DNA of 64,000 nucleotides from Liolophura sinensis (taxonomy: Eukaryota > Mollusca > Polyplacophora > Chitonida > Chitonidae): assembly GCF_032854445.1 (NCBI RefSeq), contig NC_088297.1, positions 3,099,991-3,163,990 of the forward strand, in the 5' to 3' direction. Below are positions 16,801 through 63,665 of this stretch, one piece after another. Below the pieces are notes generated by a model. The model worked only from the letters and a program-made list of their open reading frames with translations. It made no database searches and was not told the origin of the DNA. Each line of letters opens with the position of its first letter. Within the stretch, counting starts at the first letter, position 1. The translations under genes were made by a program, and so were the position numbers.

Positions 16801-19800
16801 ATCAACTATTTTAATATATGTATGTAACCTAAATTCTCAACAAATTCGGACAGAGAAACTGTGCCCGCCTTGGCAAATTGAAGAAATGTTCTATGACCTG
16901 GACAAATTCAAAAAAAATTTCTGCGAAGTTCCTCAGTGCCCTTACTGAAAAACCACATGTACACCTCAACCTCCAGAAAAACAATACTTAAAAAAACCCT
17001 TACTTCCAACTTACATGTACTATATACAGAAACCATTGTCTTACTTGTGGCATTCAGGAACCTTTGTCTTACAAGTGGCATATAGGAAACTGCATTTTAC
17101 TTTTGTCATACAGGAACATTTGTCTTACTTTTGGCATACAGGAACATTTGTCTTACTTTTGGCCTACAGAATCTTGTCTTACTTTTGGCATACAGGAACC
17201 TTTGTCTAAATCTTGGCCTACAGAATCTTGTCTTACTTTTGGTATGCGGGAACCTTTGTCATCGTTTTGGCATACAAGAACATTTGTCTTTATAATTTAA
17301 GGATACAGGTGCATTTGTCTTATCAGTGCCGTGCAGGAACCTCTATTTTACTTGTATAATACAAGAACCTTTGTTTCATGTTGACTTACAAGAACCTCTG
17401 CCTTACTTTTGGCATACAGGAATCTTTGTCTTACTTTTGTCAGGGTTTCCCTGTCTTACTTTTTAGCATACAGAGATCTCTGTCTTACCTATCGCATACA
17501 GTATTCTGCCTACCGCCACCACCGCAATGAACGACCTGGCAACCTTCATCTCCGCCATGGGGATCCAGTCCCTGAGGGTGGGGTCGTACACCTCCATAGA
17601 GCGCAGGTAGAGCGTGTGTTCCTGCATGTCCACTAAGGCGCATTCCCCTCCTACACAGTACAGCAAGCCGTCCAAGTTCGTCGTCCCTACGGCAGTACGA
17701 GCTATATTCATCAAGGCCTGTCACAAAAACAAAATACACGGTTTTATTTCATTGGTAAACATGGCCTCCGTGGCTGGCCTCCGTGGCTCAGTTGGTTAGC
17801 ACGCTAGCGCAGCGAAATGACCCAGGAGTCTCTCACCAATGTGGTCGCTGTGAGTTCAAGTCCAGCTCATGCTGGCTTCCTCTCCGGCCGTACGTGGTAA
17901 GGTCTGTCAGCAACCTGCGGATGGTCGTGGGTTTACCCCTCGCTCTGCCCGCTTTCCTCCCGCCATAATGCTGGCCGCCATCGTATATAGTGAAATATCC
18001 TTGAGTACGGCGTAAAACACCTATCAAATAAATAAATAAATTTTTTCAGTCGTACCAGTAGTAACTCCTGTCACTACACTGCTCTATTAGCAGCCCATGT
18101 TCATCAATATCTGCCCTTAGCCATAAATTTGACATTTTCTTCTTGGATGTACATGTACATACACATTTGTAAGTTTGCACACCCTGATCAAACTACATAA
18201 CTTATCAGGTTTTTTCTTTCACAGTAGACGTGGATGGAATTTAATATCTTGAGTGATTATAGAAAGAGATGTGATGTTCATGTATTCCAATCCATGTACA
18301 ACTGACGTAGATAAGAACTGACCTGAACTTAATAACCAACTCATTAGTAGTTACACTGTAAGTTCCACTGTAACAAGTTACAAAAACTGTAAACATATAT
18401 GATTCCTCCCAGAACTGTGTAACTACTAATATAGTTACAGACATACATGTACAACATAGAAGGTGAGACCAGAGCAGTGATGACATTGTGCTTGCCCGCA
18501 AATGGTCACATGTAACCGGTGAAATACGGCCTCTTGTCAGGTTACCTCAGTTAGGGTTTTATTGTAACTAAAATCTACTTACTGGTCTAAATAACCAATA
18601 CTACCAATGAGGTTAGCACTGTGTTTAATCACCGCTGTGACCAGATTCTTACACACTTATCACATTTTATCTTAATTAATAGATTTTAGAAGAAAAAACT
18701 ACCTGGGGCTGCCACCAAATGGTAAATTTCACAAGTGGTAGGTAAAATACGAAAAAAGGCCACAAAAGTTATCCCTGAAGTTATCTCCCTTTATCATATA
18801 TATATATATATATGCAGATGCTATTACAAATTAATACAAGTTTAACAAGTTACCAGTTAATGTTTAATGTTGTGTGACTACATGTACATTTACCACTGTT
18901 TAATGCTGTGCACCCACAATTTATTACCAGTTTACCAACTTCCCACAGTTATTCACATGTAACCACAATTCATCACCTGTTTACCAACTCACCATAAGTT
19001 ATTGTCATGTAACCACAATTCATCACCAGTTTACCAACTCACAATAAGTTATTGTCATGTAACCACAATTCATCACCTGTTTACAAACTCACCACAGGTT
19101 ATTCCCATGTAACCACAATTCATCACCAGTTTACCAACTCATCATAAGTTATTGTCATGTAACCACAATTCATCACCAGTTTACAAACTCACCACAGGTT
19201 ATTCGCATGTAACCACAATCCATCAACAGTTTACCAGCTCACCACTGGTTATTCCTATGTAACCACAATTCATCATCAGTTTACCAACTCACCACAGGTT
19301 ATTCCCATGTAACCACAATTCATCACCTGTGTACAAACTCACCACCGGCTATTCCCATGTAACCACAATTCATCACCTGTTTACAAACTCACCACAGGTT
19401 ATTCACATGTAACCACAATTCATCACCAGTTTACCAACTCACCACAGGTTATTCCTATGTAACCACAATTCATCATCAGTTTACCAACTCACCACCGGTT
19501 ATTCCCATGTAACCATAATTCATCACCAGTTTACCAACTCACCACAGGTTATTCCCATGTAACCACAATTCATCACCAGTTTCCCAACTCACCACCGGTT
19601 ATTCCCATGTAACCACAATTCATCACCTGTTTACAAACTCACCACCGGTTATTCCCATGTAACCACAATTCATCACCTGTTTACAAACTCACCACAGGTT
19701 ATTATTATGTAACCACAATTCATCACCAGTTTACCAACTCACCACAGGTTATTCCCATGTAACCACAATTCATCACCAGTTTACCAACTTACCACAGTTT

Positions 19801-22800
19801 CCCACTTGTCATGAAGAAAGTCGTACCTCTCCATTGTCTTTAGCTGGCAATGTGTGTCATTTCGACCCCCGACCACATAAATTGATGGGGGCTGTGGTCT
19901 AGGGGTCACTAAGGACAATGTCATATCGTCCTGTTTGGTCACTATGGCTTTACTGATCAGAAACTGACACTTTGGGCAGTTCCGCACAAATTCAGACTGC
20001 AGCACAACATCCTCTAGGTAAGAGTCCTCTAACAGCGCTAGTTTGATGTGTTCCAGAAGCTGACAGGCACTCTCAGTCCTGCTGAAGGGATCCCACTGTA
20101 TCCATGACAACGCCGCCTCCAAAACCTGGTGCTCACTCGTCACACGCAGTTTATCACTTTTTAACAAGGTAAACATTCTCTCCTCGGAGAGCTGTAAGAA
20201 TTCGTCCGTCCGTATCACATCACGGAAGTTCTGGTAAATGTAGTTCCTGGCCGCTCGCTCCAGCTCACCACACATGTACATGTCAGCAAAGTATTGGATA
20301 CCTGTCAAGTAATAAACAAGATGTACACACAATGTAGTTCCTGGCCGCTAGCTCCAGCTCACCACACATGTACATGTCAGCTAAGTATTGGATACCTGCC
20401 AAGTAATAAACAAGATGTACACGCAATGTAGTTCCTGAACGCTCCCTCCAGCTCACCACACATGTACATGTCAGCAAAGTATTGGATACCTGCCAAGTAA
20501 TAAACAAAGATGTACACACAATGTAGTTCCTGGCCGCTCGCTCCAGGTCACCACACATGTACATGTCAGCAAAGTATTGGATACCTGCCAAGTAATAAAC
20601 AAGATGTACACGCAATGTAGTTCCTGGCCGCTCGCTCCAGCTCACCACACATGTACATGTCAGCAAAGTATTGGATACCTGCCAAGTAATAAACAAGATG
20701 TACACGCAATGTAGTTCCTGGCCGCTAGCTCCAGCTCACCACACATGTACATGTCAGCAAAGTATTGGATATCTGCCAAGTAATAAACACGATGTATACA
20801 CAATGTAGTTCCTGGCCGCTAGCTCCAGCTCACCACACATGTACATGTCAGCAAAGTATTGGATACCTGCCAAGTAATAAACAAGATGTACACACAATGT
20901 AGTTCCTGGCCGCTAGCTCCAGCTCACCACACATGTACATGTCAGCAAAGTATTGGATACCTGCCAAGTAATAAACAAGATGTACACACAATGTAGTTCC
21001 TGGCCGCTAGCTCCAGCTCACCACACATGTACATGTCAGCAAAGTATTGGATACCTGCCAAGTAATAAACAAGATGTACACACAATGTAGTTCCTGGCCG
21101 CTAGCTCCAGCTCACCACACATGTACATGTCAGCAAGGTATTGGATACCTTCCAAGTAATAAACAAGGTGTATACGAAACCATGAACATGCTTAAAAGGA
21201 TACAGAATCGACACTGATTGGCTGACAGTGGAGAATGGCTTTCTTGGGTTACATCTTGACCAACGCTAAAATTCAGACTTGCACAATACAACAAAAGTGA
21301 AATTTGTAGACTGTCACTTGATTTAGTCGAAAAAATATCAGGCTGAATTACATTTTGCCCAAATTTTACTTGACAACTTGGGAAGACAAACTGCACTGAG
21401 TAACAGTAGTTTTAAACACTGAGAGTACAGTGTGTATTTCTCTTTGCAGAATAGACCGGCCCGGATAGCACAGTTGGTAGAGCGTCCACTTCGGGAGCGG
21501 TAGATCCAGGATCAATCCTTGATCGAGTCACACCTAAGACTTTAAAAGAGGAAGTTGTAACTTCCTCGCTTGGCGTTCAGCATGAAGGGGATAGTGCAAC
21601 GACTGGTTGACCCGTATCAGTATAATGGCTCGGGCGGGGCGGCTTGCTTGCCTTCGGTAAGTCGTCTCAGTGAGGCAGCACTAAATAAAAGAGCGGTGAA
21701 AATCCGTCCTGCAACAAGGAGGCACATTACACGTACATGCACCCTAATGATTCCTTCGTCGTCATATGACTGAAAAATTGTTGAGAACGACGTTAAACCC
21801 CAAGCACTCACTCACTCACTCTTTGCAGAATATGTCGTGGACATAAAGAGGAGACAACCAGCTTACACAAAGTTTTGATTGTATTACATTCTGAAAGTCC
21901 ATATCCTCATCCCTTTTTTCATCTCTGAAACTATTGTAATGCTATCATAGAATCCTATTTGGTACAGCCATATTATCTTTTGATTATTATTTTTTAAAGA
22001 ATTAAAATTTACAGGACTACTGTCAGAAGATAAAATATAAGCCTGCAAAGTGTAACATGACAGGGTGAGTGAATAAATATTTGGGGTTTAACGTTGTACT
22101 TAACAATTTTTCAGTTATATGACCTTGAGGTGTCATTAGGCACGTGTACATATACTGTGCCTTCTTGTGGCAGGGCGAGTGCATGCAACCAAAGTGCTGC
22201 CGCCACTGACGTATCAAGATATCATGCCGCAGACACCAGACATGACACCCTACCCAATCACATTACACTGACACTGTGCCAACAAGTCGTGTTTCCATGC
22301 TCTAACCTCTCAGTGATGAGCCCCAATCACAACAGCACCAAGTACCATTTTTAAAGCCTTTGGTATGACCAGACGTAACATGGCAGAAGTTTGCATGTCT
22401 ACAATAATACGTAGCTTATTCAAGCAAGTTACTGGAGAACCATTCCATGTGTGAGATACACACTTGAATTCCTTATAAGCCACATTCACAATTCAGGATG
22501 TACGCCACCACAGAGCAGCTGTGGTCGATTTAACATCCAGTCGAAGACAGGGGCCTTTAAAGTTTGAGCTTGCAGCTGCTTTTCGCGGCCAATACAACAG
22601 CAACATTTCAAAATAACACTTTCTACTTGGCATTTTCAATTTCTCCATTGTTTTTGCTATATGTTACTGCCAATGTGGACGCAATTTCCACTGTAGAATA
22701 TTTAATGTAGTAAGCATACTGCTGCTAGGTTAAAGCATAGACTGTTGATTGAAAATTAGCACCCAGTGTACCGCAAGACCTTGCAACACTCACAACGGCA

Positions 22801-24918
22801 GCTGTCTGAAACAGGAAACTGACTTAGTGGTGAAAGACTTCACAAATACATATATGCAAAAAGTTCCCAAAAGACTTGTCAGATGTATAATAGGACATAA
22901 TAGGACTATAAAATAGGGGTCAGGTGAGAAGAAAAAATACAAGATTACATGTACTAGAGGCTACAATAATAATGAGTACCAGCGTTGTTGTACATTTTAT
23001 AATCAGTTTATCACCTATACACTGTACGTCATCGAAGTTTTCACCACCTAATATGCCGTTTTCGAGTTGTGCGATTACGACAAAAGAATGACGTCCAGGT
23101 GCAAAAATAACATCGCCACTTCACGGCACAGTAAGGCTACTTGCCTATCTTTTAACATGGCAGTGATCGTGTTTAGATCAAAGCATCGACAGATCATCAT
23201 TTTTTGTGCAATATTGGGAACACAATTTCACCCCTGAACACAATTCAGAAGATCAGTGTAATCCTTTCAATTTGTTCTCTATATTCTATATACCACCCCA
23301 TGTTAAAATTACCACATTGGCCCTTTGATTTATTTATTAATTTATCTGATTGGTGTTTTATGCTGTACTCAAGAATATATCACTTATACGACGGCGACCA
23401 GCATTATGGTGGGTGGAAACCGAACATAGCTCGGGGGAAACCCACGACCATCCGCAGGTCTCTGGCAGACCTTCCCACATACGGCTGGAGAGGAAGCCAG
23501 CATGAGCTGGACTTGAACTCACACCAACCGCAGACAGAAAAATGAAGTCAAAAATCACTTTTGGTCAAAATAGGATAGGTCTACTTTATATACAAAAGTA
23601 GCAGGCTGCTGGTAACCACTTACTCACGAACCCCGTGTCATGGGTTAATCTAGTCTGATAGTTTGGCACCCCTTTGAATGATAATAAACGTCTCAATTTC
23701 ACATTTTTATCATCCAACCTTCTGACAACCAAGACCTTTAGTACTTCAGTGTTCAAAAATGCCCTAAGTCTGGCTCAGAATACACGTATGTGAGGTACAC
23801 CTGAGGAGGACAGTGAGGGAGGGGCAACATGTCAATTCCCTGTCCAGGGCTGACTGAAAGGCTAGATGTTACTAAAAGAGTGAGTTAGTGCTTAGGGTTT
23901 AACGTTGTACTCAACAATTTTTCAGTCATATGACGACAAAGGAATCCTTAGGGTGTATGTAGTGTGCCTCCTTGTTGTAGGACGGATTTCCACTGCTCTT
24001 TTATCTAATGCTGCATCACTGAGACGACTCACCGAAGGCAAGTAAGCTGCCTCGCCCGACCCATTATAGTGATACGGGTCAACCAGTCATTTCCCTATCC
24101 CCTTCATGCTTAACGCCAAGCAAGGAAGTTACAACTTCCTCTTTTAAAGTCTTAGGTGTGACTCGACCCAGAATTGATCCTGGATCTACCGCTCCCGAAG
24201 AAGACGATCTAACAACTGTGCTATCCGGGCCGGTCGTTACTAAAAGAACCCCAGTCCATATGTTCATGAAAACAGGCATCAGACATAAAAATGCAATACG
24301 AACTTCTGGAAAAAGAAGGTATGGCAACTAGCGTGATTTGTCATCATACATTCATGTGCTGGTCAAAATCATACGCAGTTAAAAATACGCACGATTTACA
24401 GTATACGATTCACATAAAATTTCACGATGATTTGTCATCATAATAAAACTTTCACAAGACAATAAGATAATAGATGATTCACTGGATATACACGAGCATA
24501 TGTGAAGTAGTACCCACCCAGGCAGTTCGAGGGCTCAAGCTGAGATTGGAGAAACTGCGCAGCCAGGTTCCGAAGGCTGAGAAGCCCCAGTAAACTGGCC
24601 CCCTGTAAAATGTTCTGTACATTCTCCACTGTCAACTCGATGGCTCCAGTGTACATGAACTCGAGCAGCAGCTCCATCGTCCCGTTCTCAATGCCGTGAA
24701 TTTCTATCAAGTTTTTCTCAGTTTCCAACATGCCATTGGTGAACATGGCTCTCAGGGTAGGGGCTGCAGCCTGCCAACACAATCTTGTGGGCTTTGAACT
24801 TGGCGCCATTGATGCACAGTACCACATCGCACAGTTCTTCGCGGACTCGCAGCTCTTGCATAACCTGGAAAGCATAACGGGAATGGAGCTCCACATTAAC
24901 AAAGCGAGATTCCTTCAT
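13624..24918 (-). CDS. Kelch-like protein (BTB–BACK–Kelch), 6 coding exons, 564 aa, one apparent 1-base insertion
   Basis: Exons in transcript order: 24918–24518, 20301–19793, 17717–17489, 16411–16271, 15549–15357, 13846–13624. Junction phases (1, 0, 1, 1, 2) agree throughout and every intron is GT–AG. Family members are substrate adaptors of CUL3 ubiquitin ligases: BTB binds CUL3 and dimerises, BACK supports it, and the Kelch propeller binds the substrate. Residues 1–133 are BTB, 134 to about 250 BACK (opening with the usual CLGI-type junction), and about 268–564 six Kelch blades (VVGG, CVGG, AIGG, VAGG, AFGG, VIGG). The length is typical for the family. I cannot assign a particular KLHL orthologue. 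The BTB exon needs one base removed within 24755–24763 to stay in frame; everything else is intact, so this is either a sequence error in a C run or a very recent lesion. Introns carry many tandem arrays, three made of copies of this gene's own splice junctions. Confidence 0.9.
13908..14090 (-). mobile_element. Two SINE-A 3′ fragments in tandem
   Basis: Two core segments (about 13908–14003 and 14025–14090) lie head to tail, each starting with a tttattta-type tail. They lie in the intron before the last exon of the Kelch-like gene. Confidence 0.65.
14185..14255 (+). mobile_element. SINE-A 3′ fragment
   Basis: It reads gcagccgttgtgtaggtgaa and ends with aaaacaccaatcagatgaat. Confidence 0.6.
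14345..14600 (+). mobile_element. SINE-A, nearly full length
   Basis: The head starts at gcgcgctagcgcagcgaaat, the B box gttcaagtccagc is intact, and the core and caatcaaataaacaaac tail follow. It lies in an intron of the Kelch-like gene. Confidence 0.85.
15262..15350 (+). mobile_element. SINE-A 3′ fragment abutting a Kelch exon donor
   Basis: Degenerate core with a long (aaat)n tail. The tail stops a few bases from the minus-strand donor at 15356–15355. Confidence 0.6.
15357..15549 (-). CDS. Kelch-like gene, fifth coding exon (rest of fourth blade, start of fifth)
   Basis: The acceptor gtccgccag precedes GT GGC TAT GAC. It encodes GGYDKTLHTDRASVECFD, the EW ending of blade four, then HLYAFGGRFRHTEQYFDLVE. 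The donor is AG|GTAAGT and it leaves in phase 2. Confidence 0.9.
15652..16118. repeat. 119-bp tandem repeat, about 4 copies, in a Kelch-like intron
   Basis: Successive copies of ttaacgccatgtcacac start at 15652, 15767, 15886 and 16005. The unit ends in cttctgtcttaactataac and gtatgtctgccaacaac. I see no similarity to the flanking exon edges, unlike three other arrays in this gene. Confidence 0.9.
16117..16232 (+). mobile_element. SINE-A 3′ fragment
   Basis: It reads agatggtcgtgggtc, then a C/A-rich diverged part, then tataagtgaaatattcttga and a caaccaaataag tail. It is fused to the end of the 119-bp array. Confidence 0.55.
16271..16411 (-). CDS. Kelch-like gene, fourth coding exon (third blade, start of fourth)
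   Basis: The acceptor ctaccgatag precedes GA GGA GAA GAC. It encodes GGEDRSCSFDLVERYDP, TQTW, then SGAGVALCDNKIYVAG. The 141-nt exon is symmetric, phase 1 to phase 1. The donor is GCAG|GTAGTA. Confidence 0.88.
17030..17488 (-). repeat. 28-bp minisatellite derived from the donor junction of the third Kelch exon
   Basis: The plus-strand unit is tttgtcttacttttggcata plus caggaacc, about 16 variable copies. The edge of the exon reads tgtcttacctatcgcatacag on plus, so each unit aligns with the last exon bases plus the donor. On the minus strand many units present aaa|gtaagac, a good decoy 5′ splice site. The array directly touches the real donor at 17488. Confidence 0.8.
17489..17717 (-). CDS. 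Kelch-like gene, third coding exon (second blade, start of third)
   Basis: The acceptor ttttgtgacag precedes GCC TTG ATG AAT. It encodes ALMNIARTAVGT, LLYCVGGECALVDMQEHT, the LRSMEVYDP strand and GRILYAI. The second blade has a longer loop than usual between its GG pair and the EVYDP strand. The donor is ATAG|GTAAGA, phase 1. Confidence 0.9.
17774..18042 (+). mobile_element. SINE-A, full length
   Basis: This is the best copy in the window. The head tggctcagttggttagcac (A box), gagttcaagtccagc (B box), ggatggtcgtgggttta, the core and a caaataaataaataaa tail are all present. The first 13 bases of the head are duplicated just upstream (17761–17773). Confidence 0.9.
18930..19792 (-). repeat. 50-bp minisatellite derived from the donor junction of the BACK exon, about 17 copies
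   Basis: On the minus strand each unit reads ctgtggtgagttggtaaa, then ctggtgatgaattgtgg and ttacatgggaata. The real exon end is actgtg|gtaagttggtaaa, so every unit is a copy of the last exon bases, the donor and the first intron bases. Most copies present GTG|GTGAGT, a strong 5′ splice site. The array runs directly up to the real donor at 19792. Confidence 0.9.
19793..20301 (-). CDS. Kelch-like gene, second coding exon (BACK domain and first blade)
   Basis: The acceptor ttacttgacag precedes GT ATC CAA TAC. It encodes GIQYFADMYMCGELERAARN, the BACK helices (EEFLQL-like and SEHQVLEAALSWIQWD), then SIYVVGGRNDTHCQLKTMER and KWETV, the first Kelch blade. Phase 1 in, phase 0 out. The exon is flanked on both sides by arrays made of its own edges. 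Confidence 0.92.
20237..21177 (-). repeat. 94-bp tandem array copying the BACK exon acceptor and its first 65 coding bases
   Basis: Copies of aatgtagttcctggccgct start at 20237, 20331, 20425, 20520, 20614, 20708, 20802, 20896, 20990 and 21084. The copy nearest 20237 is the genuine exon edge. On the minus strand every copy has attacttggcag|GTATCC followed by codons for IQYFADMYMCGELELAAR and NYI. The upstream copies are not followed by the rest of the BACK exon. Confidence 0.92.
21455..21822 (+). mobile_element. SINE-B, full length
   Basis: It has a tRNA-like head (cggatagcacagttggtaga; B box region ggatcaatccttgatc), a long body, a core reading ttccttcgtcgtcatatgac and a tail of ccaagcactcactcactcac. 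It lies in the first coding intron of the Kelch-like gene. Confidence 0.85.
22062..22375 (-). mobile_element. SINE-C, 3′ and middle parts
   Basis: It shares ggggtttaacgttgtactta with SINE-B, but the body differs (gacaccagacatgacaccct). It matches the copy at 54540–54895. Confidence 0.65.
23326..23535 (-). mobile_element. SINE-A, 5′ truncated
   Basis: Starts with the tail tttatttattaatttatctg, then the core, gggggaaacccacgaccatc and gaggaagccagcatgagctg. Confidence 0.8.
23878..24236 (-). mobile_element. SINE-B, full length
   Basis: It runs from gagtgagttagtgcttaggg through gttacaacttcctctttt to gtgctatccgggccggtc, the reverse of the 21455 copy. Confidence 0.85.
24518..24918 (-). CDS. Kelch-like gene, first coding exon (BTB domain) with an apparent +1 frameshift
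   Basis: The ATG at 24918–24916 is the first after an in-frame TGA upstream. It encodes MKESRFVNVELHSRYAFQVM, then CDVVLCINGAKFKAHKIVLA and GCSP. At 24755–24763 (minus strand cccctaccc) the frame shifts; the next frame continues LRAMFTNGMLETEKN, IENGTMELLLEFMYTGAIEL and ends SNCLG at a GT donor. The exon is 401 nt; 400 nt would give the phase 1 that the BACK exon acceptor needs, which supports one surplus base. Both halves match BTB domains well. Confidence 0.88.
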
Positions 24919-25547
24919 GGTGTGAAGAGCTCCACAGGGGAGGTTACTCCAGCAGGAAGACAAGGATCAGAGCCTATTTACAGCTACATATACCAGTGCC
25001 ACTCCATGTAGGCCTCAACTGATATATAGTACGAAGTGTTCAGTTTCCTTATGGGTACTCCCATGTTAACAATAACTCCATCGTTGAACTTCACATTGTA
25101 CACACACTCATTTTCCACAAAACAGCAAGTCCCATCTTCAGAGCAGATTTGTTGTACTCTAACATGTAGGCCTATGTAGACACACTGGAAAAAAAAAATA
25201 AATAAACATCAAAAACTGACATAAAATAAGATTTGTGACAACTGAAATTATACTACAAAGAGCTCATCTGTACAAGGAATGACTTATTCTGTCAAATTTA
25301 AGAAACAGGTGTAGTTCAGGGTGTCCTAATGTCAGATATCAACAAATTTGCTTTCGACTATATCCTAGTTTATACTAAACATAGCACAACAATAAAAGAC
25401 TCACAATATTAATTATCAAACAGTGAATATGTATATACATGTAACATACACAAAACCACCGGCGATTAAGATAAATCTAATCATGTTCAAAGACAAGAAC
25501 ACAGATTAAAATGTGCATATCTGTATTTCTCATATACAGGTACATGA

Positions 25548-25993
25548 CTAAAAACAGCTCTCATGTAAAACAGCTCTCATGTAAAAACAGCTCTCATGTA
25601 AAAACAGCTCTCATGTAAAACAGCTCTCATGTTAAACAGCTCTCATGTAAAATAGCTCTCATGTAAAAACAGCTCTCATGTAAAACAGCTCTCATGTAAA
25701 AACAGCTCTCATGTAAAACAGCTCTCATGTAAAAACAGCTCTCATGTAAAAACAGCTCTCATGTAAAACAGCTCTCATGTAAAAACAGCTCTCATGTAAA
25801 AAGCTCTCATGTAAAACAGCTCTCATGTAAAAACAGCTCTCATGTAAAAACAGCTCTCATGTAAAAACAGCTCTCATGTAAAAACAGCTCTCATGTAAAA
25901 CAGCTCTCATGTAAAAACAGCTCTCATGTAAAAACAGCTCTCATGTAAAATAGCTCTCATGTTAAACAGCTCTCATGTAAAACAGCTCTCATG
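25548..25993. repeat. 17-bp minisatellite, about 26 copies
   Basis: The unit aacagctctcatgtaaa repeats with one-base length changes in its A run. It lies upstream of the BTB exon, probably in a 5′ intron. Confidence 0.9.
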
Positions 25994-26311: not shown

Positions 26312-27176
26312 GTCACGTCGCGAAAGTTCTGGAAAATGTAGTTCCTGGCCGCTAGCTCCAGCTCACCACACATGTACATGTCAGCAAAGTATTGGATACC
26401 TGCCAAGTAATAAACAAGATGTATACGCAATGTAGTTCCTGGCCGCTCACTCCAGCTCACCACACATGTACACGTCAGCAAAGTATTGGATACCTGCCAA
26501 GTAATAAACAAGATGTACACGCAATGTAGTTCCTGGCCGCTAGCTCCAGCTCACCACACATGTACATGTCAGCAAAGTATTGGATACCTGCCAAGTAATA
26601 AACAAGATGTACACACAATGTAGTTCCTGGCCGCTAGCTCCAGCTCACCACACATGTACATGTCAGCAAAGTATTGGATACCTGCCAAGTAATAAACAAG
26701 ATGTACACGTAATGTAGTTCCTGGCCGCTAGCTCCAGCTCACCACACATGTACATGTCAGCATCAGTATTTGATACCTGCCAAGTAATAAACAAGATGTG
26801 TATGCAATGTACATGTAGTTCTTGGACGCTCGCTCCAGCTCACCACACATGTACATGTCAGCAAAATAATGGATACCTGTCAAGTAATAAACAAGATGTA
26901 CACGTAATGTAGTTCCTGGCCGCTCACTCCAGCTCACCACACATGTACATGTCAGCAAAGTATTGGATACCTGCCAAGTAATAAACAAGATGTACACGCA
27001 AAGTAGTTCCTGGCCGCTCACTCCAGCTCACCACACATGTACATGTCAGCAAGGTATTGGATACCTTCCAAGGAATAAACAAGGTGTATACGCAACCATG
27101 AAGCTGCTTAAAGGGATACAGAATCGACACTGATTGGCTGACAGTGGAGATAGGGTTTCCTGGGTTACATCTTGAA
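26312..27176 (-). repeat. Second copy of the 94-bp BACK-exon array, 6 kb upstream of the first
   Basis: Copies start at 26335, 26429, 26523, 26617, 26711, 26806, 26906 and 27000. At the left the first copy continues into FQNFRDV, i.e. further into the BACK exon, then similarity stops. At the right both arrays share about 90 more bases (gatacagaatcgacactgat, gattggctgacagtgga). This is therefore a duplicated segment carrying a truncated exon piece plus the array. It lies 5′ of the start codon and cannot be a normal part of the coding order. Confidence 0.9.
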
Positions 27177-33718: not shown

Positions 33719-36700
33719 ATGAAGACTGTTAATCCACCTCAATCCGCTGTGTCTAAAGATCTCGAAGAAGAAAAGTGCGAATGTGAGTTTTCTTTACTTA
33801 TATATACTTATTTACTTATCCTATATCTAAACTGAGTTCACAGATGGTTAAAGAAGTTCCGCTGTTATAACGGAGACGTTTGGAATAACAGTATACAGGC
33901 AACATGATAGACAGCGACTGGGGAAAACGAGATAAAAGAGGAGGGCGTTAGAGGTTATAGATCGTGTCATAACAAGTATCATTACTGTAGATTCGGTTTG
34001 TCTATACAGGCCATGGTTTAGACTATTATACTGCATATACATTCATATATGTGTACTCTCCACCCCCCACCCCCCCCCCACCCCCACCACCACCACCACA
34101 CTCCTTGCAGTCAAAACGAGAGCTATAAGAATGCTGCGTTACTATATACTCTCAAAAGAACAATCTGTTAATTTTAACAAAAAGTCCGCTGTGTAATGTA
34201 GAATGTATTCTGTTATTGTAGCAAATTATTCTGTTAAATATAACTCGCATATTCTGTTATTGTAGCAAATTATTCTGTTAAATATAACTCGCATATTCTG
34301 TTACACGTAATTCAGCAAAAAGATTCTATTAGGCTAACAAGATATTATGTTGAACATGACACAAGATTGTGCTATAATAACATAACACATTCTATTATCG
34401 CTCAGACAACAGACTTTCTGTTAAAATTAACAGGTTAATTTTTTGAGTGTTCCATGGGGGATAGTTTGCATCAACTGTTGTGACCCCTACATACCTGTGC
34501 CTGTATCTTGGTGTCAGGTCGTGGTATAGCTTTAAAAGTTTGTCATGTTCTCCTGGCCACTCATCTTGGTAAGATTTTTGCACCTTTTCTTTTCAAGCAC
34601 TTAATCCTGTAGACCTACGCGTGAATTTCTTAGAGCTACCAAATTCCGGAAAAAAAAAGCTTTGTTTAATAAACAACCACCGTTCCCCGGATTGGGGCTA
34701 ACGCCACAAATCATAGTGCTGGGCGCCGTCGAATAAGTGAAATGTCCTCGAGTACAGCTTAAAACGCCAATCATAAATAAAGGCCTGACAGTCGCAGTGA
34801 ACCAGAGGTTGAAGAGCCAATTCTTCTGAAGAGTACAATCGTGATTTCTACTGCGCATGTGTTAAGTTTGTTACTCATTTAAATCATGTTATGATACCAC
34901 ATATTATCACTTCCAATGAATTTCTTTTTTTGGTGATATGAAACAGCCAAATTTTAATATTGCTAGTTCATTTACCTTGTCATTCCTTTCTATCTTGGTT
35001 GGTTGGGTGGGTGGGGGGGGGGGGGGGGGGGGAAGGGGGGATTGTTTCCGTCGATTCCATTTAAACTTTTGCTTTATTCCCTGTTGTTTAGGTTGTACCT
35101 CACGCCACACATTCGCCCTGCTATGTTCTATTGGATTGGGCATCGCCTACTTCCTCCGGTTCAACCTCAGCGTAGCCATGGTTGCTATGGTAACCGGATC
35201 CTCGATTCCCGTCGGTTCAGCCAATATGAGTTCACACTCCAAAGAGTGCCCCCGACCTAACGTCTCCAGTGACAACACAACAATCCCAAACGTAATTATA
35301 TAGACTTGACTCATACTTCTTACAGCGCATACACTGCTCTGTACGTTCGCATTGCATCCCCGCCACCGCCATGCTTCTTACAGCGCATGAGCCTATCTCT
35401 ACGTTCACTTTACATCCCAGCCACAGGTAGCAATTAAATTTTGTTCAAAAACCTTGAACAACACCGAGGGTCGCCTTGGTCACGGTGATGAGGCAGGAAG
35501 TGATGTCAGAAATCACAACTCCGTGTTTCTTTATGACACTTTATATTCTCTTTTTCCGAAGTATGCAAAATATGATTGTAACCAAGAGCTGAAGCTATTT
35601 ATCGATGAATAATGGTTAAATAGTTCGGCGCGAGGACATCAGTGATGAGGCTACAACTAGACAAGGCTACCTGCGTCTCACAGACTCAAGCTTGTTTAGT
35701 GATGCCAGTGATGTATACTCAAAAAATTAATCTGTTAAAGAGTTCTACAGTGTATTATATTATTCTGTAAGGCGGGTCGGCAGTTGGAGGTCACGTGACC
35801 ACCCTTTCCTGTCTAAAACAAAGTGGCCGCTTAATGTTAAAGCACTGGAGAAAAATTCAAATTTTGCCACTTCGCAAGCGACCTGTAAGGCCTAGTTGTA
35901 CCAAACAACAAAGCTCTGCAGAAATACTCAAACTATCTGGAAAGCTGAAAATTATAAAAACCCAACTAATACAAGATTGCTCAGTGTCAGAATCAGGACA
36001 TTTTCTCACAAGATGGCGATCAGTTATATGGGTGGAGGAAAACGGAGCAACAGACAACCACCTGTATAATTAGCTTACTGACAAACTTTCCCACATGTGA
36101 TCTGCCATACAGATATGCACATCATATTGACGAAATACAAAAGCTTTTGACCAATTAATGATGTTGCGTGTTTGAACCTATGGTAAGGAGGTTTGCCAAG
36201 TACAATGGGAAGGCCGGTGGTCGTCTCCGGACACTTCGGTTTCCTCAACCCGTAAACCTGGCAGCCGTCATCTAGGTGAAAAAATAATCACTTAATATAA
36301 AAAAACCATGATCGACTAGTCATCACTCTATGAATCGGCGAAACGAACAATAAATAAATCAATTAATCAATCAGGTCTTTTATTTGTTTTTCTCGCCTCC
36401 TAGACAGGAGAGTTCGAGTGGAATCCGAAGACGCAGGGCCTGATCCTCAGCTCGTTTTTCTACGGCTATTGTGTCATGCAGATCCCCGGTGGTTGGGTGT
36501 CGACCCGATACGGCGCTAAGCTCATCGTCGGCTTGAGTATACTCATCCAGTCCCTGCTGGCTCTACTCACCCCCGTGGCGGCTAGGACCCACATCGGGCT
36601 GATGATAGCCGTCAGGGCTGTGGAAGGCTTAGCGGGGGTAGGTATAATGTGCACTTCCGTTAGAGTTTAATTTAAGATAATTTAAAGGGAAACACAACTA

Positions 36701-40857: not shown

Positions 40858-40914
<57 letters not shown>

Positions 40915-43900
40915 AACATGTGCCCGGGGTATTGAATGTAGACAATAAACCATGGATAGCTCTATATAATGGGACTGTTAGAAGGTGATTACGCTCCAAA
41001 AATGAGTAGAAAGTCTGTTGTCTGAGTGATGCTAGAATGTACTGTGTATTATGGTGTCATAGTCAACAGAACATCCTGAATGGTTATGATGAAGTAATAG
41101 AATATGTGTGTTATATTTAACAGAATAATCTGTTGCAATAACAGAATATGTTCTAGCATCACTCTGTATTAATTTTTTGAGCTTAGAGGTGTTTTGGAGG
41201 TCGTTCATTTCGCTGTTTATAGATGTGAAAGTACGTCCTTTACTTGCCAAACGTGGGTGGTTTATAACTTCGGGCGCTGCGGTTTCATCCATGTATGTAA
41301 TTGTTCGGCTTCGTGAAGTAGGACTATATTGTTTTGGAAGAGCTTTAATCGTGAAATCATCAATGGATTAAATTTGATTTCATCATGACGGGGCCTTCAT
41401 GGCCGAGGTGATTAGCACGCCAACGGGGCGCAATGACCCATGGGACTATCGATTTCCAATGCGATTGCCGTGAGTTCCAGCTCATGCTGGCTTCCTCTCC
41501 GGCCTTAGGTGGGAAGGTCTGGCAACAACCTGCGGATGGGCATGGGTTTCCACTGGTCTACGCCCGGTTTCCTCCCACCATAATGCTGGCCGCAGTCATA
41601 TAAGTGAAATATGTTTGAGTACGGTGTAAAACACCAATCAAAAAAGTAAATAAATTTCTTCTTGACGAACTCCACATTTGCAGGTTGTGTGGGGTGTGTT
41701 TGGTTCTTATTCTGGATGTTCATCGTGCACAGCTCACCATCCAAGCATCCGCGAATTTCCAAACGAGAGTTACACATGATAACATCTTCTATCGGCGAGA
41801 ATATCTACGAGGTAGGTATACGGGTAAAGACGAGTCGGCATTTCGGGAATCTCGCGAATTCACGCAGGTTAGGACGAGACAGGGCAGGCTCTCTGGCGTG
41901 ATTTTACGGCAGCTGCGCGACAGATCCGGCTATGCGAGATGTGTATTCATTTTAGCAAGTACCGTAAACTCTCGCCTTTTGGCTGCGTTATTTTGCGATT
42001 GTCCCCACCCAATCTTGTCTTTGAACTCGCGGGGCTCATGAAATGCTGACTCGGCTTGTTATACATTAACCTATATTCATGTTGGACGGCAGAGCTTAGC
42101 CCCCAGCAAACTCTCCGCAGTCCAAACTTCTATATCCAAGGGTGGGTCAGGCTGTGGGCAAAAACTCAAAAGCACCGAACGTGACATGAACGTTGAATTT
42201 TCAAAAAGCCTGTTACAGCCTGCGGTGGATTTTTGACTTGACCCAAAAGTTATTTTCTAACAAACACAAATTCAAAGCAGCTGCCATGGAGTCGTCAATG
42301 AGGTCGTGTGTTCGAATCCAGCTCTCGCTCTTTCCGTTGGTGCTTTGGAAAGGTTATCAGGTACGTGACGAACATGGGGTTTTCATCCCGCCGGATGTTA
42401 CTTCATATATTTCATTATTATCTTGAGAGTTTATGCTCTTGCATGCCACCTTTATTTACTGCATTTTTGGCTTTGTTCAAATAATCCAGTGAACATATTA
42501 AACCCAAACAAATCAAGATCGGTGGTTTACTTTGAGTACTCCGATTCCTTCCACCCATGTAGGCCAAAGATCTTCCTCGTGTCGTTTGAGACCGATCAGT
42601 TAATAAATCAAATCAATCTTTCAGAAAAAGCCGGTTCCGTGGGTAGCCATGTTGACGTGTGCGCCGTTCTGGGCGGTCTGTGTGGCATTCACGTGCAGCG
42701 CGTGGGGATCTTACACTTTGATGACGGAACTCCCCTCCTTCATGAAGGCGGTCATCGGAGTCAACGTATCTCAGGTACTCTCTTCTTTTGGAATTCTAAT
42801 TTCTTTATTTGGTTAAAAGTGCAGAAATTGTTTTAATGTACATATTAACCCTTTTATTAGTTTATAAATTAAATACTTTATCCGTTATAAATAAGTTAAT
42901 TTACTCGGCTATAAATTTATTAATTTCATCTACAGGACCCCACCCATACAGAGTTATTTATTAATTTGATTGGTGCTTTACACCGTACTCAAGAATATTT
43001 CATTTACACTACGGTAACCAGCATTATGGTGACAGGAAACGCCACATTAGTACAGATGTACTAATTACGGCAAATTACCTTTTTTTTCTTTTGTTTTATG
43101 TTTTTCTAAGAAATAGCAAAAGTCATTCCAAATCATTCTAAAAGTCCAGAGTCAGTTAATCAGGGTTAAGGGAATTTAGTACCCAGGCACACATAGGTAA
43201 ATGTATAACACATACTAAATGGGTGAGGGCCCTGTTTTCCTTCTCAGAGTGGCTTGCTGTCAGCCTTACCCTACGCTGTGTCCATCGTCTTCACACTCAT
43301 GTGGGCAAATTTAGCCGACTTCCTCAGGAAAAAAGAATACCTTAGCGTTACCAAAATCCGAAAACTCATGAATACGATAGGTGAGTAACACTACTCCGTG
43401 TGGAAGGAAAGGGGCGGGCCGCGGTCTAGTGGTGTAGAGGTGTATGCCACTCAATCTCTTAGACACACGAGGTGCAGGTTCGAACCTGGCCTTGGCCTGG
43501 GGATCCATACATGTAAATTCACCGGTAATAACCCGCTCTCTCTGTTCGCAGTTCCTTGCTAAAACTAACTGGATGAAGACACTGGTCTGTTTTCGCAGTT
43601 TGATGCTCGTTGAACATCACCTATTTGCCACTAATATGGCGTGCTTATCTGTAGGCCCCTATACCACATGCGATCGTCAGTGTCTTGCTGAAGGTCGCTG
43701 ATTTACGCCAGAAACTTCGGTTGCCTCCGTCCAAGAAACTGACCGCCATCGTATAAGTGAAATATTGTTGAGAGTGGCGTTTACTTAACAATAAGAATAA
43801 ATAAATAAATAAATAATAAATAAAGGATAAAATAAATATGTGGAAGAGTTGTGAATGTGACTGTACATCTCCCCTCTCAAAGATCCCTAATGCTATCCTA

Positions 43901-46092
43901 TGAACACTTATCATATTTGAAACGTTTCTTTCCGTTTTGTTTCTTATTTTCAAGTTTTGTTTTGAGCTGTCTTTTATAAAGAAAACTGTTTGCGCCTCGC
44001 ATAATTTTCATTTACAGGAGTCGTTCAAACGGAGACATTGTAGAATACATTTAATCTGATTATTGCAGGAAATTATTCCATCTGTCGGTCAAAAAAAAGT
44101 GGTAATCCAAGGGTCATTTTCAGAAAACTTCGTAACTGATATTTCTCGTAATATCGTCATAAACAGACTTGATTTACGAATAAAGACTGCGAAGAATTAA
44201 TTTTTGTTTCCAAAGTGTGAAATAAAAATGTAATAGTTTCCTCATATATATTTCAGCGGCGCTGTGTCCCGCCGCGTTTCTCGTACTGTCCAGTTTTGTG
44301 GGTTGTAACCAGTACGTGGTGGCTGGAATGATCACCGGGGCTACTTGCTTTCAGGTAGCCGATGCCGCGGGATCCAACGCAGTCATGATTGACATGGCGC
44401 CCCACTTGGCAGGTAACAGACACCGCTGTCTGCACCGTTCAGCGCAGAGATTCGTCATCTTAAACACCAATTTATATTAGTATAAGTTTAAACTTGGAAG
44501 TTTTGACTTGTTCAATTGGTGTTTTAATTCATGCCGCATCGGCGCTTAACATGTTATCACGAAGATTTCTCCAAGTTATGTTTCCGACATATATGTGACA
44601 CCCAACATGACACTCCACCCGACATGACGCCTCACCCGACACAACAACCCGCCCGATGCGATGCCCCACCCGACATGACACCCCACAAGACAAGAAATCA
44701 CGGCCCATCCTACATGAGGTCTTATCCCACATTAAGCCCATCCGACATGACGCCACATCAGACATGACGGCCCAACCGACATGACGACCCAACCGACGTG
44801 ACGTCCCGGCCCCACCCAACATGGCGCCCCACCCAACATGGCGTCCCACCTGACCTGACGCCCCACCCTACATGATGTCGTCCACCCGACATGACGCTCC
44901 ATCCTACATGAGGCCCCTCCCCCCTACATGCCCCCCCCCCCCCCGACACGGCGCCACACCCGACGTGACGTTCCACCAAACGTTATGCCCCACATGCCAT
45001 GACGCCGTATCATGTCGTGACGCCATACCCGTCGCTTGGCCTCACAGCCGACATGACGCCTCACAGCCGACATGACGCCTCACACCCGACATGACGCCTT
45101 ACACCCGACATGACGCCTCACACCCGACATGACGCCTCACACATGACATGACGCCTCACACCCGACATGACGCCTCACCCGACACGATGTCCCGCAAGAC
45201 ATTACACCCCTCCCGACATGACGCCTGACAGTTGTTATGACTAGAATCGGTCTGTTTTGAAGATTCGGCTACATTCCTACGCGAATTACTTCGGTGTCCT
45301 CCAAACTTAAATCTGGCCAGGGACAAATACATGCAAAGTCCTTGAAGACTATTCTACAACACCAAAGAATAAAAAAAATAGACTTGATCGGTTAGAATTA
45401 CTAGAGCAACAACGATATGAATTTGTTGATTTGTGATAACTAAATCTATTTTTGACTAGGTTGTGTGGGTTAGTTGGCCAATACGTATTTTATTTCACTC
45501 CACATCGCCATAACACTGTCGTATATGTTCCATTATTACACAGGATTAATCAAGTCCGTGTGCAACACGTTCGCCACGCTGACAGGAATTGTCTCCCCTT
45601 ACCTCGCCGGCGTGCTCGTCAACGATGGGGTAGGTAAGACCGCTTCCAGCTTGGGTGGAGTGGGTAGTGGGCGGGATAAAGATAAATAAACAGGACAACG
45701 ATAAATAATGTATCAATGGAACTACCGAGCGTGGTTGTGGGCCTACTGCTCACTCAGTTAGCAGGTGAAACAGCACCGATATTAAGATATTAACATATTG
45801 CACTGTGATATTAATTATTGGTTCTTTATATTACATTTTGACTTTCTGTTACGTTGGTTACGTTGGCTGCCTTTGTTTCCAATTGCAGGAGACTAAGGAG
45901 GAATGGTCTAAGGTGTTTTACATCGCCGCTGGCGTGCTTGTTTTTGACGCCGTTTTCTTCCTGATATTCGCCTCCGGAGACGTCCAACCATGGTCAGCGC
46001 CTGTCACAGAAATCGAAGTGACCACAGACGAGTACAGTGAGGCCAGCTCTCAGAAACAGCTCTGGTCCGGCAGTACTACTATACAGGGATAA
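33719..46092 (+). CDS. SLC17-family anion transporter, sialin-like, 11 coding exons, 512 aa, complete
   Basis: Exons: 33719–33782, 35092–35291, 36404–36637, 38575–38662, 39257–39352, 41684–41811, 42625–42774, 43248–43380, 44257–44412, 45544–45629, 45889–46092. All introns are GT–AG with matching phases; the total is 1539 nt. Family members are 12-helix major facilitator proteins that move organic anions or phosphate, in lysosomes, vesicles or plasma membrane. Visible family signatures: KCECCTSRHTFALL before helix 1, YFLRFNLSVAMVAMV, TQGLILSSFFYGY, MQIPGGWVSTRYGAK, AVEGLAG|GALFPSVHTM, RWAPVNERSK, FLGGWPS, KHPRISKRE, MTELPSFM, NTFATLTGIVSPYLAG and SGDVQPW. The loop after helix 1 has sequons NMS, NVS and NTT, as expected for a luminal glycosylated loop. 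The first exon (21 codons) was chosen because its donor phase makes the Cys-Cys pair seen in sialin. The exact substrate is not decidable. Confidence 0.92.
34065..34105. repeat. C-rich / (ACC)n low-complexity run
   Basis: Runs of C with interspersed A, then caccaccaccaccac, in the first SLC17 intron. Confidence 0.8.
34148..34450. mobile_element. MITE (family M1), full length with internal duplication
   Basis: The left end ctcaaaagaacaatctgtta and right end cagtt-like ttaacaggttaattttttga form terminal inverted repeats. It contains gaatgtattctgttattgta and a 45-bp direct duplication of tattctgttattgtagcaaa. No coding capacity. It lies in the first SLC17 intron. Confidence 0.75.
34685..34785 (+). 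mobile_element. SINE-A 3′ fragment
   Basis: Degenerate core ending in aaaacgccaatcataaataa. Confidence 0.55.
35012..35040. repeat. Poly-G run before the second SLC17 exon
   Basis: About 19 consecutive G followed by gaagggggg, some 50 bases before the acceptor at 35090–35091. Such runs are error-prone in sequencing and can form quadruplexes. Confidence 0.85.
35727..35771. mobile_element. MITE M1 terminal fragment
   Basis: It reads actcaaaaaattaatctgtt and then diverges near ctgtaaggcg. Confidence 0.5.
36833..36970 (-). mobile_element. Diverged SINE (A′ subfamily)
   Basis: It reads tttatttattccattcattt, then a core-like actcaagaatttttcactta and ggtttaaccaccgaccta. Confidence 0.5.
37670..37966 (+). 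mobile_element. SINE-B, shortened body
   Basis: Head ggcccggatagcacagttgg, body with internal losses near 37815, core and the tail ccaaacactcactcactcac. It lies in an SLC17 intron. Confidence 0.8.
39369..39842. mobile_element. Candidate MITE with imperfect inverted ends
   Basis: Left end aaacactaaaaaggtgttt, later attacagtttagaa. The reverse complement of the right end gives aaacacatatctgttacagt then ttagaa. The interior is rich in gtttagtaaa and tttaaac motifs in both directions. Evidence is moderate. Confidence 0.4.
39886..40120 (-). mobile_element. SINE-A, nearly full length
   Basis: Tail tttatttatttgactggtg, core, gaggaagccagcatgagctg, then the head degraded near a C run at 40118. Confidence 0.8.
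40212..40405. mobile_element. MITE M1 copy
   Basis: Starts tacactcaaaaagttatagc and ends ctgctaaaactaacagatta. Internal atattcaacataatatcc is shared with the 47347 copy. Confidence 0.7.
40859..40909. repeat. (TA)n microsatellite, about 25 units
   Basis: Perfect ta repeats in an SLC17 intron. Confidence 0.95.
40994..41184. mobile_element. MITE M1 copy
   Basis: It contains aaagtctgttgtctgagtga, taatagaatatgtgtgttat and ends tattaattttttgagctt. Confidence 0.7.
41390..41656 (+). mobile_element. SINE-A, full length
   Basis: Head ggccgaggtgattagcacg, B-box side gagttccagctcatgctggc, ctgcggatgggcatgggttt, core and tail. It ends about 25 bases before the acceptor at 41682–41683. Confidence 0.85.
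42950..43045 (-). mobile_element. SINE-A 3′ fragment
   Basis: It reads ttatttattaatttgattgg through gcattatggtgacaggaaac. Confidence 0.7.
43600..43800 (+). mobile_element. Diverged SINE (A′ subfamily)
   Basis: Shares ccactaatatggcgtgc and cgctgatttacgccagaaac with the 4110–4300 element and ends with a (aaat)n tail. Confidence 0.5.
44600..45230 (+). repeat. 17–18-bp degenerate minisatellite in an SLC17 intron
   Basis: Units of the form cccgacatgacgcctcaca repeat about 30 times, irregular on the left and more uniform at 45050–45180. A C run lies at about 44931–44943. Confidence 0.85.
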
Positions 46093-62500: not shown

Positions 62501-63025
62501 CCATGGTTAAGCCATTTATCAAGTTTCACTTCACCACAACCGTGCTAGCCTAGCATAATGACCCAGGAGCCTCTCTTGAGAGCAGTCGTTCTGAGTTCAA
62601 GTCCAGCTCATGCTGGCTTCCTCTCCGGCCATATGTGGTAAGGTCTGCCAGCAACCAGCGGACTGTCGTGGGTTTTCCCCGGGCTTTGCCCAGTTTCCTT
62701 CCACAATAATGCTGGCCGCTGTTGTATAAGTGAAATATTCTTGAGTATGGCGTAAAACACCAACCAAATATATATACACTTCATTACAATGAACTGCTTT
62801 GAAAACCGTCTGGAGGACAGGTTTATGAGGGACTGACAGACGTTACGAGGTGTAACTCTATGATCTCGCTTGGTACGGCTAAGGGACTGTAACTACATAA
62901 GTGAGATCCTTCAGATACTACTTAGTGTGTGTTTCTATCCCAGTCTTACCCAACTGTATTCCTAATGATGTTAGGATTCTTCCATACAGACGGATGTACA
63001 CCAACCCGAGGATATTCCAGAGTCT
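53474..63025 (-). CDS. 3′ part of an unrecognised gene (gene 4), last 5 coding exons, 169 residues seen
   Basis: Exons in transcript order: 63025–62950, 60223–60045, 57776–57691, 55215–55105, 53530–53474. Phases agree (1 in; 2, 1, 0, 0 between). The visible part starts TLEYPRVGVHPSVWKNPN, then EEEPPKPEVVVAERLCAPP, a Gly/Arg stretch GVGRGIGIPGGGLDALRKQV, a Ser/Thr-rich linker, and ends with DTKKQQKKLQKKLRQIQALE, GEELTAAE and EKTSRREEIEKALEVLK. The last 55 residues resemble the helical C-terminus of PYM and eIF2A (basic KKLRQI, a G-E-x-L turn, acidic helix), a segment tied to ribosome binding in PYM. The rest does not look like either protein, so I assign no function. The exons upstream of 63025, where a catalytic or RNA-binding domain could lie, are outside the window. 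Confidence 0.75.
54006..54345 (-). mobile_element. SINE-B, full length, in the last intron of gene 4
   Basis: It starts agtgagtgagtgagtgcttg and ends in ccaactatgctattggggcc. Confidence 0.85.
54540..54895 (-). mobile_element. SINE-C, full length
   Basis: On the minus strand the head reads ggtggcctagtggttaaag with B box gggatcaaacccaggtc. The body has gacatgacaccccatccagt, and the 3′ end reads tggggtttcacgtcaaactt on plus. Confidence 0.75.
55000..55072 (-). mobile_element. SINE-A core fragment next to a gene 4 donor
   Basis: Degenerate core (cacttatacgctagtggcca) about 30 bases from the donor at 55104–55103. Confidence 0.5.
55105..55215 (-). CDS. Gene 4, exon with the PYM/eIF2A-like basic helix
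   Basis: The acceptor catttcaacag precedes CAC TCT GTA. It encodes HSVADTKKQQKKLQKKLRQI, QALEDKQDRGEELTAAE. Donor GAG|GTAAGG. Phase 0 at both ends, 37 codons. Confidence 0.8.
55340..55465 (-). mobile_element. Diverged SINE (A′ subfamily)
   Basis: It contains gacggcagtcaggtttgtag and aaaaccaccgacctttgtca, as at 8911–9060. Confidence 0.45.
55545..56805. repeat. 17-bp minisatellite, about 70 copies
   Basis: The unit cactatctccttgtaaa has alternating gtaaa/gtaag variants and occasional accatctcctcataaa units. The order of variants repeats in larger blocks. It lies in the gene 4 intron between 57691 and 55215. Confidence 0.92.
56872..57412. repeat. 36-bp minisatellite, 15 copies
   Basis: The unit cggacctccaagacctctac plus aggcattaagatgaca repeats with few changes (cattaag on the left, cgttaag in the middle). 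The period is a multiple of three and leaves three frames open for 176–191 codons; none is joined to gene 4 exons. Confidence 0.92.
57691..57776 (-). CDS. Gene 4, Ser/Thr-rich linker exon with a GC donor
   Basis: The acceptor ttttgtttcag precedes CT CCT CTG. It encodes APLPQHLVSSSTASSSTESQ and DETSGAENG. The only junction that gives the needed phase 0 is GGG|GCAAGT, a GC–AG intron. Confidence 0.65.
57913..58700. other. Gene 4 intron, nothing recognised
   Basis: Unique AT-rich sequence between two arrays. A plus-strand frame of 86 codons at 58003–58263 has no recognisable content. Confidence 0.35.
58717..59910. repeat. 33-bp minisatellite with higher-order structure, about 36 copies
   Basis: The unit is gggatttgatgcttgtgctg plus agaagggcacatt with variants. 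Blocks of several units recur: about 59008–59200 is nearly repeated at 59338–59530. A 423-codon plus frame and a 274-codon minus frame are open only because 33 is a multiple of three. It lies in an intron of gene 4. Confidence 0.92.
60045..60223 (-). CDS. Gene 4, exon with Pro/Glu-rich and Gly/Arg-rich segments
   Basis: The acceptor tattttttccag precedes G GGA GAG ATG. It encodes GEMPLEEEPPKPEVVVAERL, CAPPSRPPALRQGLARAG and VGRGIGIPGGGLDALRKQVR. Donor CCTG|GTAGGG. Phase 2 in, phase 1 out. The GC content is clearly higher than the surrounding intron. Confidence 0.78.
60520..60635 (-). mobile_element. SINE-A 3′ part
   Basis: It reads tttatttttattttgattgg, a core shortened by about 35 bases and cccgggggaaacccacgacc. 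Confidence 0.75.
60636..61640. other. Gene 4 intron, mostly unrecognised
   Basis: AT-rich DNA with one weak A′-type SINE relic near 61035–61160 (ttataggacggtggtttggt). From 61440 onward degenerate forms of the next array appear. Confidence 0.35.
61650..62235. repeat. 49-bp minisatellite, about 12 copies
   Basis: The unit is acaccactgtgacagtcttt plus tgcacactcaacatgacata and cacttgtga. It becomes degenerate to the left (to about 61440). Confidence 0.9.
62540..62778 (+). mobile_element. SINE-A, nearly full length
   Basis: Head from gtgctagcctagcataatga, B box gagttcaagtccagc, core, tail caaccaaatatatatac. Confidence 0.85.
62950..63025 (-). CDS. Gene 4, first exon inside the window
   Basis: The acceptor gttgtttttgcag precedes AG ACT CTG GAA TAT. 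It encodes TLEYPRVGVHPSVWKNPNII and RNTV. Donor TTGG|GTAAGA. Phase 1 in, phase 2 out. Its acceptor and first 8 bases are repeated in the 65-bp array upstream. Confidence 0.7.
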
Positions 63026-63665
63026 CTGCAAAAACAACCGCAAACTTTATAGTCAATGAGATCTATCACCTGAGGCTGAAGACAGAGTCTCTGCAAAAAC
63101 AACCACAAACTTTATAGTCAACGAGATCTATCACCTGAGGCTGAAGACAGAGTCTCTGCAAAAACAACCACAAACTTTATAGTCAACGAGGTCTATCACC
63201 TGAGGCTGAAGACAGAGTCTCTGCAAAAACAACCACAAACTTTATAGTCAATGAGATCTATCACCTGAGGCTGAAGACAGAGTCTCTGCAAAAACAACCA
63301 CAAACTTTATAGTCAACGAGATCTATCACCTGAGGCTGAAGACAGAGTCTCTGCAAAAACAACCACAAACTTTATAGTCAATGAGATCTATCACCTGAGT
63401 CTGAAGACAGAGTCTCTGCAAAAACAACCACAAACTTTATAGTCAACGAGATCTATCACCTGAGGCTGAAGACAGAGTCTCTGCAAAAACAACCACAAAC
63501 TTTATAGTCAACGAGATCTATCACCTGAGGCTGAAGACAGTCTCTGCAAAAACAACCACAAACTTTATAGTCAATGAGATCTATCACCTGAGGCTGAAGA
63601 CAGAGTCTCTGCTAAAACAACCACAAACTTTATAGTCAATGAGATCTATCACCTGAGGCTGAAGA
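63020..63665 (-). repeat. 65-bp tandem array copying the acceptor of the gene 4 exon, about 10 copies
   Basis: Copies start near 63020, 63085, 63150, 63215, 63280, 63345, 63410, 63475 and onward. On the minus strand each carries gttgtttttgcag, then 21 bases beginning AGACTCTG and ending CAG, then gtgatagatctcattgacta. Each unit thus looks like a 21-nt micro-exon between AG and GT. Confidence 0.9.

Follow-up and report, generated by a model that had tools for sequence, protein, structure and literature searches.

The tandem arrays that border exons in this stretch of the Liolophura sinensis genome are very probably minisatellites of the mirage type, arising by tolerated tandem duplication with breakpoints that ignore exon edges, the copy attached to the exon presumably being the one that is spliced. 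Eight hemocyanin-domain matches lying within 11.5 kb of this genome are in keeping with a mollusc. The stretch analyzed, referred to here as the window, is 64,000 nucleotides long, and its features are listed in Table 1. Four of its arrays, with units of 94, 50, 28 and 65 bp, adjoin exons that all lie on the minus strand. In each of the four the junction contained in the array unit was the same as the edge of the adjoining exon, and this match is beyond doubt. Two acceptors (94- and 65-bp arrays) and two donors (50- and 28-bp arrays) were involved. The 94-bp unit consists of about 29 nt of intronic sequence, the acceptor and 65 nt from the start of the BACK exon, and the exon sequence within the TRF limits amounted to 65 bp for the 94-bp array, 5 bp for the 50-bp array, 13 bp for the 28-bp array and 8 bp for the 65-bp array. 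The 28-bp array was quite degenerate. This anatomy, with the touched edge in every array and each type of junction twice, had been described in an earlier note made from the letters of the window, and it held throughout. The assignment to two genes in the same note held for the three arrays placed by Pfam in one gene of the KLHL type (BTB-BACK-Kelch) and in part for the fourth, which touches an exon of a second gene (gene B) recognized by splice logic only.

Table 1. Arrays, exons and splice junctions in window coordinates; a slash marks the splice junction.
Feature	Position	Strand	Content and basis
28-bp array	17024..17501	-	TRF, two overlapping 28-bp rows, 69-70% matches; carries donor of first Kelch exon (K1); junction motif of unit ..CTGTATGC..A.AG/GTAAGAC
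Kelch exon K1	17489..17717	-	Pfam Kelch_1 when joined with following exons; donor duplicated
K1 donor	17489	-	TGCGATAG/GTAAGACA; sequence and edge extraction
50-bp array, 17.7 copies	18914..19797	-	TRF and sequence; unit holds BACK-exon donor
BACK exon	19793..20301	-	BACK PF07707 E=4.9e-29, Kelch_1 E=1.6e-07; acceptor and donor both duplicated
BACK-exon donor	19793	-	AAACTGTG/GTAAGTTG; sequence and edge extraction
BACK-exon acceptor	20301	-	..TTACTTGACAG/GTATCC; sequence and edge extraction
94-bp array, 9.9 copies	20237..21172	-	TRF and sequence; unit holds BACK-exon acceptor
BTB exon, 5' neighbor of BACK exon	24518..24960	-	BTB PF00651 E=4.7e-13 on second half; 5' limit uncertain
Second 94-bp array, 8 copies	26335..27095	-	Upstream of BTB exon; same splice acceptor and exon piece
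MFS transporter gene	34900..46092	+	Pfam MFS_1; at least 7 visible exons
Gene-B exon, 75 nt	62951..63025	-	ETLEYPRVGVHPSVWKNPNIIRNTV; between AG and GT; splice signals and reading frame only
Gene-B acceptor	63025	-	TTTTTGCAG/AGACTCTG; sequence and edge extraction
65-bp array, 10 copies	63018..63665	-	TRF and sequence; unit holds gene-B acceptor GTTTTTGCAG/AGACTCTG

The later exons of the KLHL-type gene, when joined, contained five Kelch_1 stretches in Pfam. Reading through the BTB exon takes two frames, with what looks like a shift of one base about halfway along it; this may reflect either a broken gene or an error of the assembly. The two 94-bp arrays were 93-94% identical to each other in several registers, and their flanks matched at 91% over 80 bp on the intron side and at 85% over only 20 bp on the exon side. 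Judged by sequence, the second array is a copy of the first including its intron flank, so that the window holds five such arrays that do not count as five independent ones. The units at the intron-distal ends of the two arrays were narrowly each other's best match (0.94, with runners-up at 0.93 and 0.91, one unit of the first array not being properly cut); the comparison suggests, without proof, that the 94-bp array predates its copying.

The gene-B case was the weakest of the four because its exon had no Pfam, NCBIfam or convincing PDB match, and the gene-B query against the genome returned its own locus and two insignificant matches. Arrays with a period of at least 10 and at least 2.5 copies (TRF) covered 17.7% of the window. 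The edges of the window's genes were listed by hand, several of them unverified, and 4 of these 29 lay in arrays; given that coverage the number is unsurprising. None of the 13 hand-listed edges of the MFS gene, which we take to be SLC17-like, lay inside an array. A 58-bp repeat (35312-35424) and an array at 44599-45222 are near exons with no exon edge in the repeat by eye, and no exon edge was seen within the unit of a 119-bp array at 15644-16117. Other repeats in the window were open to translation. A 60-bp array at 910-1394 (94% matches) had a plus-strand open frame of 161 aa with cysteine-containing 20-residue repeats and is possibly coding, and a 33-bp array at 58714-59907 (36 copies) was open for more than 400 codons in two plus frames and one minus frame. 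A dispersed repeat, which we guess to be SINE-like, was found in several open frames (17833-18045, 12782-13048, 62550-62780 and others), with translations ..IYLIGVLRRTQEYFTY.. or alike.

Recurrence of duplicated edges was assessed in a genome sample drawn from 312 Pfam exon hits of the myosin, kinesin, TCP1 and ABC-membrane families. The sample comprised 177 of these hits in 140 stretches (L001-L140) that included flanks of about 600 bp, chosen as hits without inner stops and taken roughly in listed order, hence non-random, with BACK hits left out. Splice scores were used to place the edges; of the 354 possible, 47 were dropped for weak scores, leaving 307 (160 acceptors and 147 donors). TRF detected 71 distinct arrays in the sample at the thresholds used for the window. 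When the 177 exons were inspected by eye, 13 exon edges lay within an array or duplication, one of these being probable. The acceptor cases were L025, L042, L044 and L045, with L042 only probable because a second acceptor is possible inside the Pfam hit, and the donor cases were L009, L013, L036 (a single extra copy), L078, L105, L111, L129, L131 and L132. All four of these unrelated families were represented (myosin 4, kinesin 4, TCP1 2 and ABC 3), and by these 13 edges the phenomenon recurs genome-wide. L131 falls outside the 307-edge set, though it is a case by eye, because its donor score failed; L078 and L044 are cases by eye but are not among the 10 edges of the 307 that were positive in the edge-centered test described below. 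L124 was rejected as a case, as it duplicates pieces of exon interior and intron and not the edge itself.

Decoy splice sites in the window were counted by alignment, giving 9, 17, 9 and 9 decoys for the 94-, 50-, 28- and 65-bp arrays, or 44 in total, in line with the clusters of about 10-17 decoys beside one real site that had been proposed beforehand. AG or GT was kept in 41 of the 44, with AG in 9/9 decoys of the 94-bp array and 9/9 of the 65-bp array and GT in 15/17 of the 50-bp array and 8/9 of the 28-bp array. Site strength was scored with a splice matrix that is a generic animal consensus, not trained on this species. With this matrix the decoys of the 50-bp array had a median score of 9.2 compared to 9.7 for the real site, and 8 decoys of the 65-bp array scored at or above the real site. 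Across 17 cases (4 from the window and 13 from the sample) GT/AG was kept in 176 of 188 decoys, and the score of 84 of the 188 equaled or exceeded that of the real site. In 7 of the 17 cases the real site outscored the median decoy, in 7 the two were equal and in 3 the real site scored lower (Wilcoxon p=0.11); weakening of the decoys by selection was considered and showed no clear sign in this comparison. Use of the acceptor decoys of the 94-bp array would add a premature stop codon in 8/8 tested (9 exist), and donor extensions in the 50-bp array would add one in 5/5 tested, three codons beyond the exon end. Read-through into the 28-bp array would meet a stop eight codons beyond the exon end, and for the 4 decoys tested in the 65-bp array a stop would follow in each of the two open frames.

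The decoy banks could be functional, either competing for splicing factors or yielding unproductive transcripts at a low rate that tune expression. The retention of GT/AG and the scores of the decoys fit such a role, as do the human IFI6 minisatellite that supplies splice donors (Turri 1995) and the human tandem repeats at exon-intron boundaries reported to alter splicing (PMC2812944). However, homogenization between copies also predicts GT/AG retention, the arrays seem neutrally placed and the genes affected are scattered and unrelated; we regard a function of this kind as unlikely.

The position of repeats relative to exon edges was measured independently of TRF by scoring whether the 30 bp centered at a given distance from the edge recurred within 250 bp at 24 or more of 30 positions. 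Positions 60 bp inside the exon were repeated in 3/300 and the edges themselves in 10/307, followed by 19/305, 26/305, 33/299 and 41/293 at 50, 100, 200 and 300 bp into the intron. Repeat coverage therefore climbs smoothly from the edge into the intron and is near-absent deeper in exons; within the flanks, the exon edge was the point of least array coverage. Extrapolation of the linear trend from 50-350 bp predicted an edge rate of 0.050 [0.020-0.083], compared to an observed rate of 0.033 [0.016-0.051]. Edges are struck about as often as predicted from intron arrays with free breakpoints.

These measurements bear on the idea that duplication starts preferentially at exon-intron edges, for example at breaks linked to transcription or splicing. 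Four cases in one window (three of them in a single gene), 13 further exon edges in the sample and a density of array ends just inside exons that was nominally 1.4 times that in introns all speak for it. The interval of that ratio is 0.5-3.3, which leaves exons indistinguishable from introns in this respect but would permit a threefold edge excess. The 307 edges showed no peak, and the observed edge rate did not exceed the extrapolated intron trend. Within the power of the sample, preferential initiation at edges is contradicted and very unlikely. The earlier note had favored this explanation, with slippage or repair starting at edges, or else a purging of arrays elsewhere, and had named a lack of exon-edge excess as the outcome that would count against it. 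In the 307 edges arrays were no more frequent than in introns, coverage at the edge being below that in the intron. Purging fails for introns as arrays are commoner there than at edges, though a weaker form survives, arrays being commoner near the sampled exons than in random DNA.

Arrays were more frequent around the sampled exons than in random DNA, for which eight 10-kb stretches (L141-L148) were placed using the digits of constants. Array coverage at 150-600 bp from the sampled exons was 15.9% [12.0-20.1%] compared to 5.2% [1.5-10.2%] in the random stretches, an approximately threefold difference indicating that arrays are not uniform over the genome; in the TRF-free test 68/1498 random points (4.5%) were repeated. 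Some gene-linked bias may therefore exist, though not at the edge itself, and with flanks of 600 bp its source may be a property of introns, gene-rich DNA or nearness to exons. The window, with 4/29 edges in arrays compared to 3-4% in the sample and three of the four in one gene, showed mild clustering, a comparison biased by the window having been chosen for its arrays. It is possible, if on balance rather doubtful, that the birth of minisatellites is tied to gene bodies and that a few percent of splice sites are thereby multiplied into banks of similarly strong decoys. If true, the spliceosome must ignore these decoys or use them in a regulated way, and the species is a natural genome-wide experiment setting the real splice site against near-identical copies.

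The arrays could also be intermediates of intron gain, in which segments with splice signals are duplicated in tandem (the Rogers model and the mirage model of Ebner), as proposed for amphioxus globins (Ebner 2010) and as the ready-made splice sites in the units would allow. The sampled arrays extend into apparently existing introns beside exons of old domain families and no sign of a new intron position was seen in the sampled cases, which makes this highly improbable. Assemblies classically go wrong at arrays. An artifact in which short segments were falsely copied, to which the possible one-base error in the BTB exon might point, is nevertheless barely credible here as the HiFi reads (mean 8,347 bp, 14X; PMC11068029) are longer than the arrays (at most about 0.94 kb among the five discussed) and the copies bear private substitutions.

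For the origin of the arrays we return to tolerated duplication without regard to exon edges. In this chiton genome, which is rich in arrays, tandem duplications would arise with breakpoints placed freely with respect to exon edges; those tolerated would run from a breakpoint in the intron to a second one slightly inside the exon. Such a duplication would be tolerated because the copy attached to the exon leaves that exon intact, all further copies being intronic. From this seed, ordinary minisatellite turnover would build between a few and about 20 copies, each with a splice site of near-normal strength. Splicing would pick the sole copy still joined to the whole exon, consistent with exon definition; we infer both this fidelity and the duplication mechanism, the exon-attached copy presumably being chosen because only that copy carries the whole exon. 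The anatomy of the arrays, their recurrence, the missing peak at edges, the decoy scores on the generic matrix and the stop codons are direct results.

Although the earlier note knew of no named class for such arrays, the class has a name, "mirages", given in amphioxus. Mirages were described there in Adh3 and in the globins BflGb6 and BflGb9 (PMC3087553, which cites earlier Adh3 cases, Canestro 2002); a TnC mirage is mentioned and PGBD5 repeats are likened to mirages in PMC3902484, and mirages have been proposed as possibly general in cephalochordates. The Adh3 units measure 10-72 bp and those of the globins about 150-160 bp (PMC3087553, PMC3902484). In both animals the unit spans the boundary of the adjacent exon, as in 4/4 arrays of the chiton window, where the gene-B exon is a predicted one. 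Duplication in amphioxus can affect the 5' as well as the 3' boundary, with unstable copy number (PMC3087553), and both were hit in the chiton, with two junctions of each type in the window and 9 donors and 4 acceptors (one probable) in the sample. The extra copies in the chiton lie on the intron side with the real copy still joined to the exon, as in amphioxus, in keeping with the 3/300 repeated at 60 bp inside exons. AG/GT is kept by many, not all, copies in amphioxus (PMC3087553) and likewise in the chiton (41/44 in the window and 176/188 over the 17 cases). The accounts in PMC3087553 and PMC3902484 describe no apparent interference of mirages with regular splicing. The chiton arrays are known from the sequence of one haplotype, whereas the amphioxus work included RT-PCR and allele lengths.

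Repeats at or near splice sites have been reported in other animals. The human IFI6 (6-16) minisatellite gives multiple splice donors (Turri, Cuin, Porter 1995); its repeat units are said to serve as donors, whereas the chiton decoys are sites predicted from sequence. In human segmental-duplication genes internal tandem repeats at exon-intron boundaries can yield new splicing patterns (PMC2812944), a study in which recent human paralogs were compared with RNA support and novel introns, in contrast to the apparently silent decoys of the chiton. In C. elegans CeRep25B and other intronic minisatellites occur near alternative exons, with an effect on splicing suggested (PMC4039745); like the chiton arrays these are intronic minisatellites beside exons, but their units are apparently not described there as copies of the neighboring exon edge. 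A report of mirages in a mollusc was not found in the literature searched (open-licence papers), and a paper on Conus introns refers to microsatellites. The apparently novel elements are the occurrence of mirages in a mollusc, at about 3-4% of the exon edges sampled, and a positional control by which their frequency is roughly that expected from free duplication where introns are rich in arrays. This suggests that mirages are to be expected wherever introns are rich in minisatellites, without a special edge mechanism. The real site, accompanied by as many as about 20 copies of similar predicted strength, is a natural test of what fixes splice choice other than the splice-site sequence, an old question that existing RNA-seq can address. 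Unlike the single genes described in amphioxus, a cephalochordate, the chiton cases come from a mollusc and from four unrelated gene families, with their position relative to exon edges controlled.
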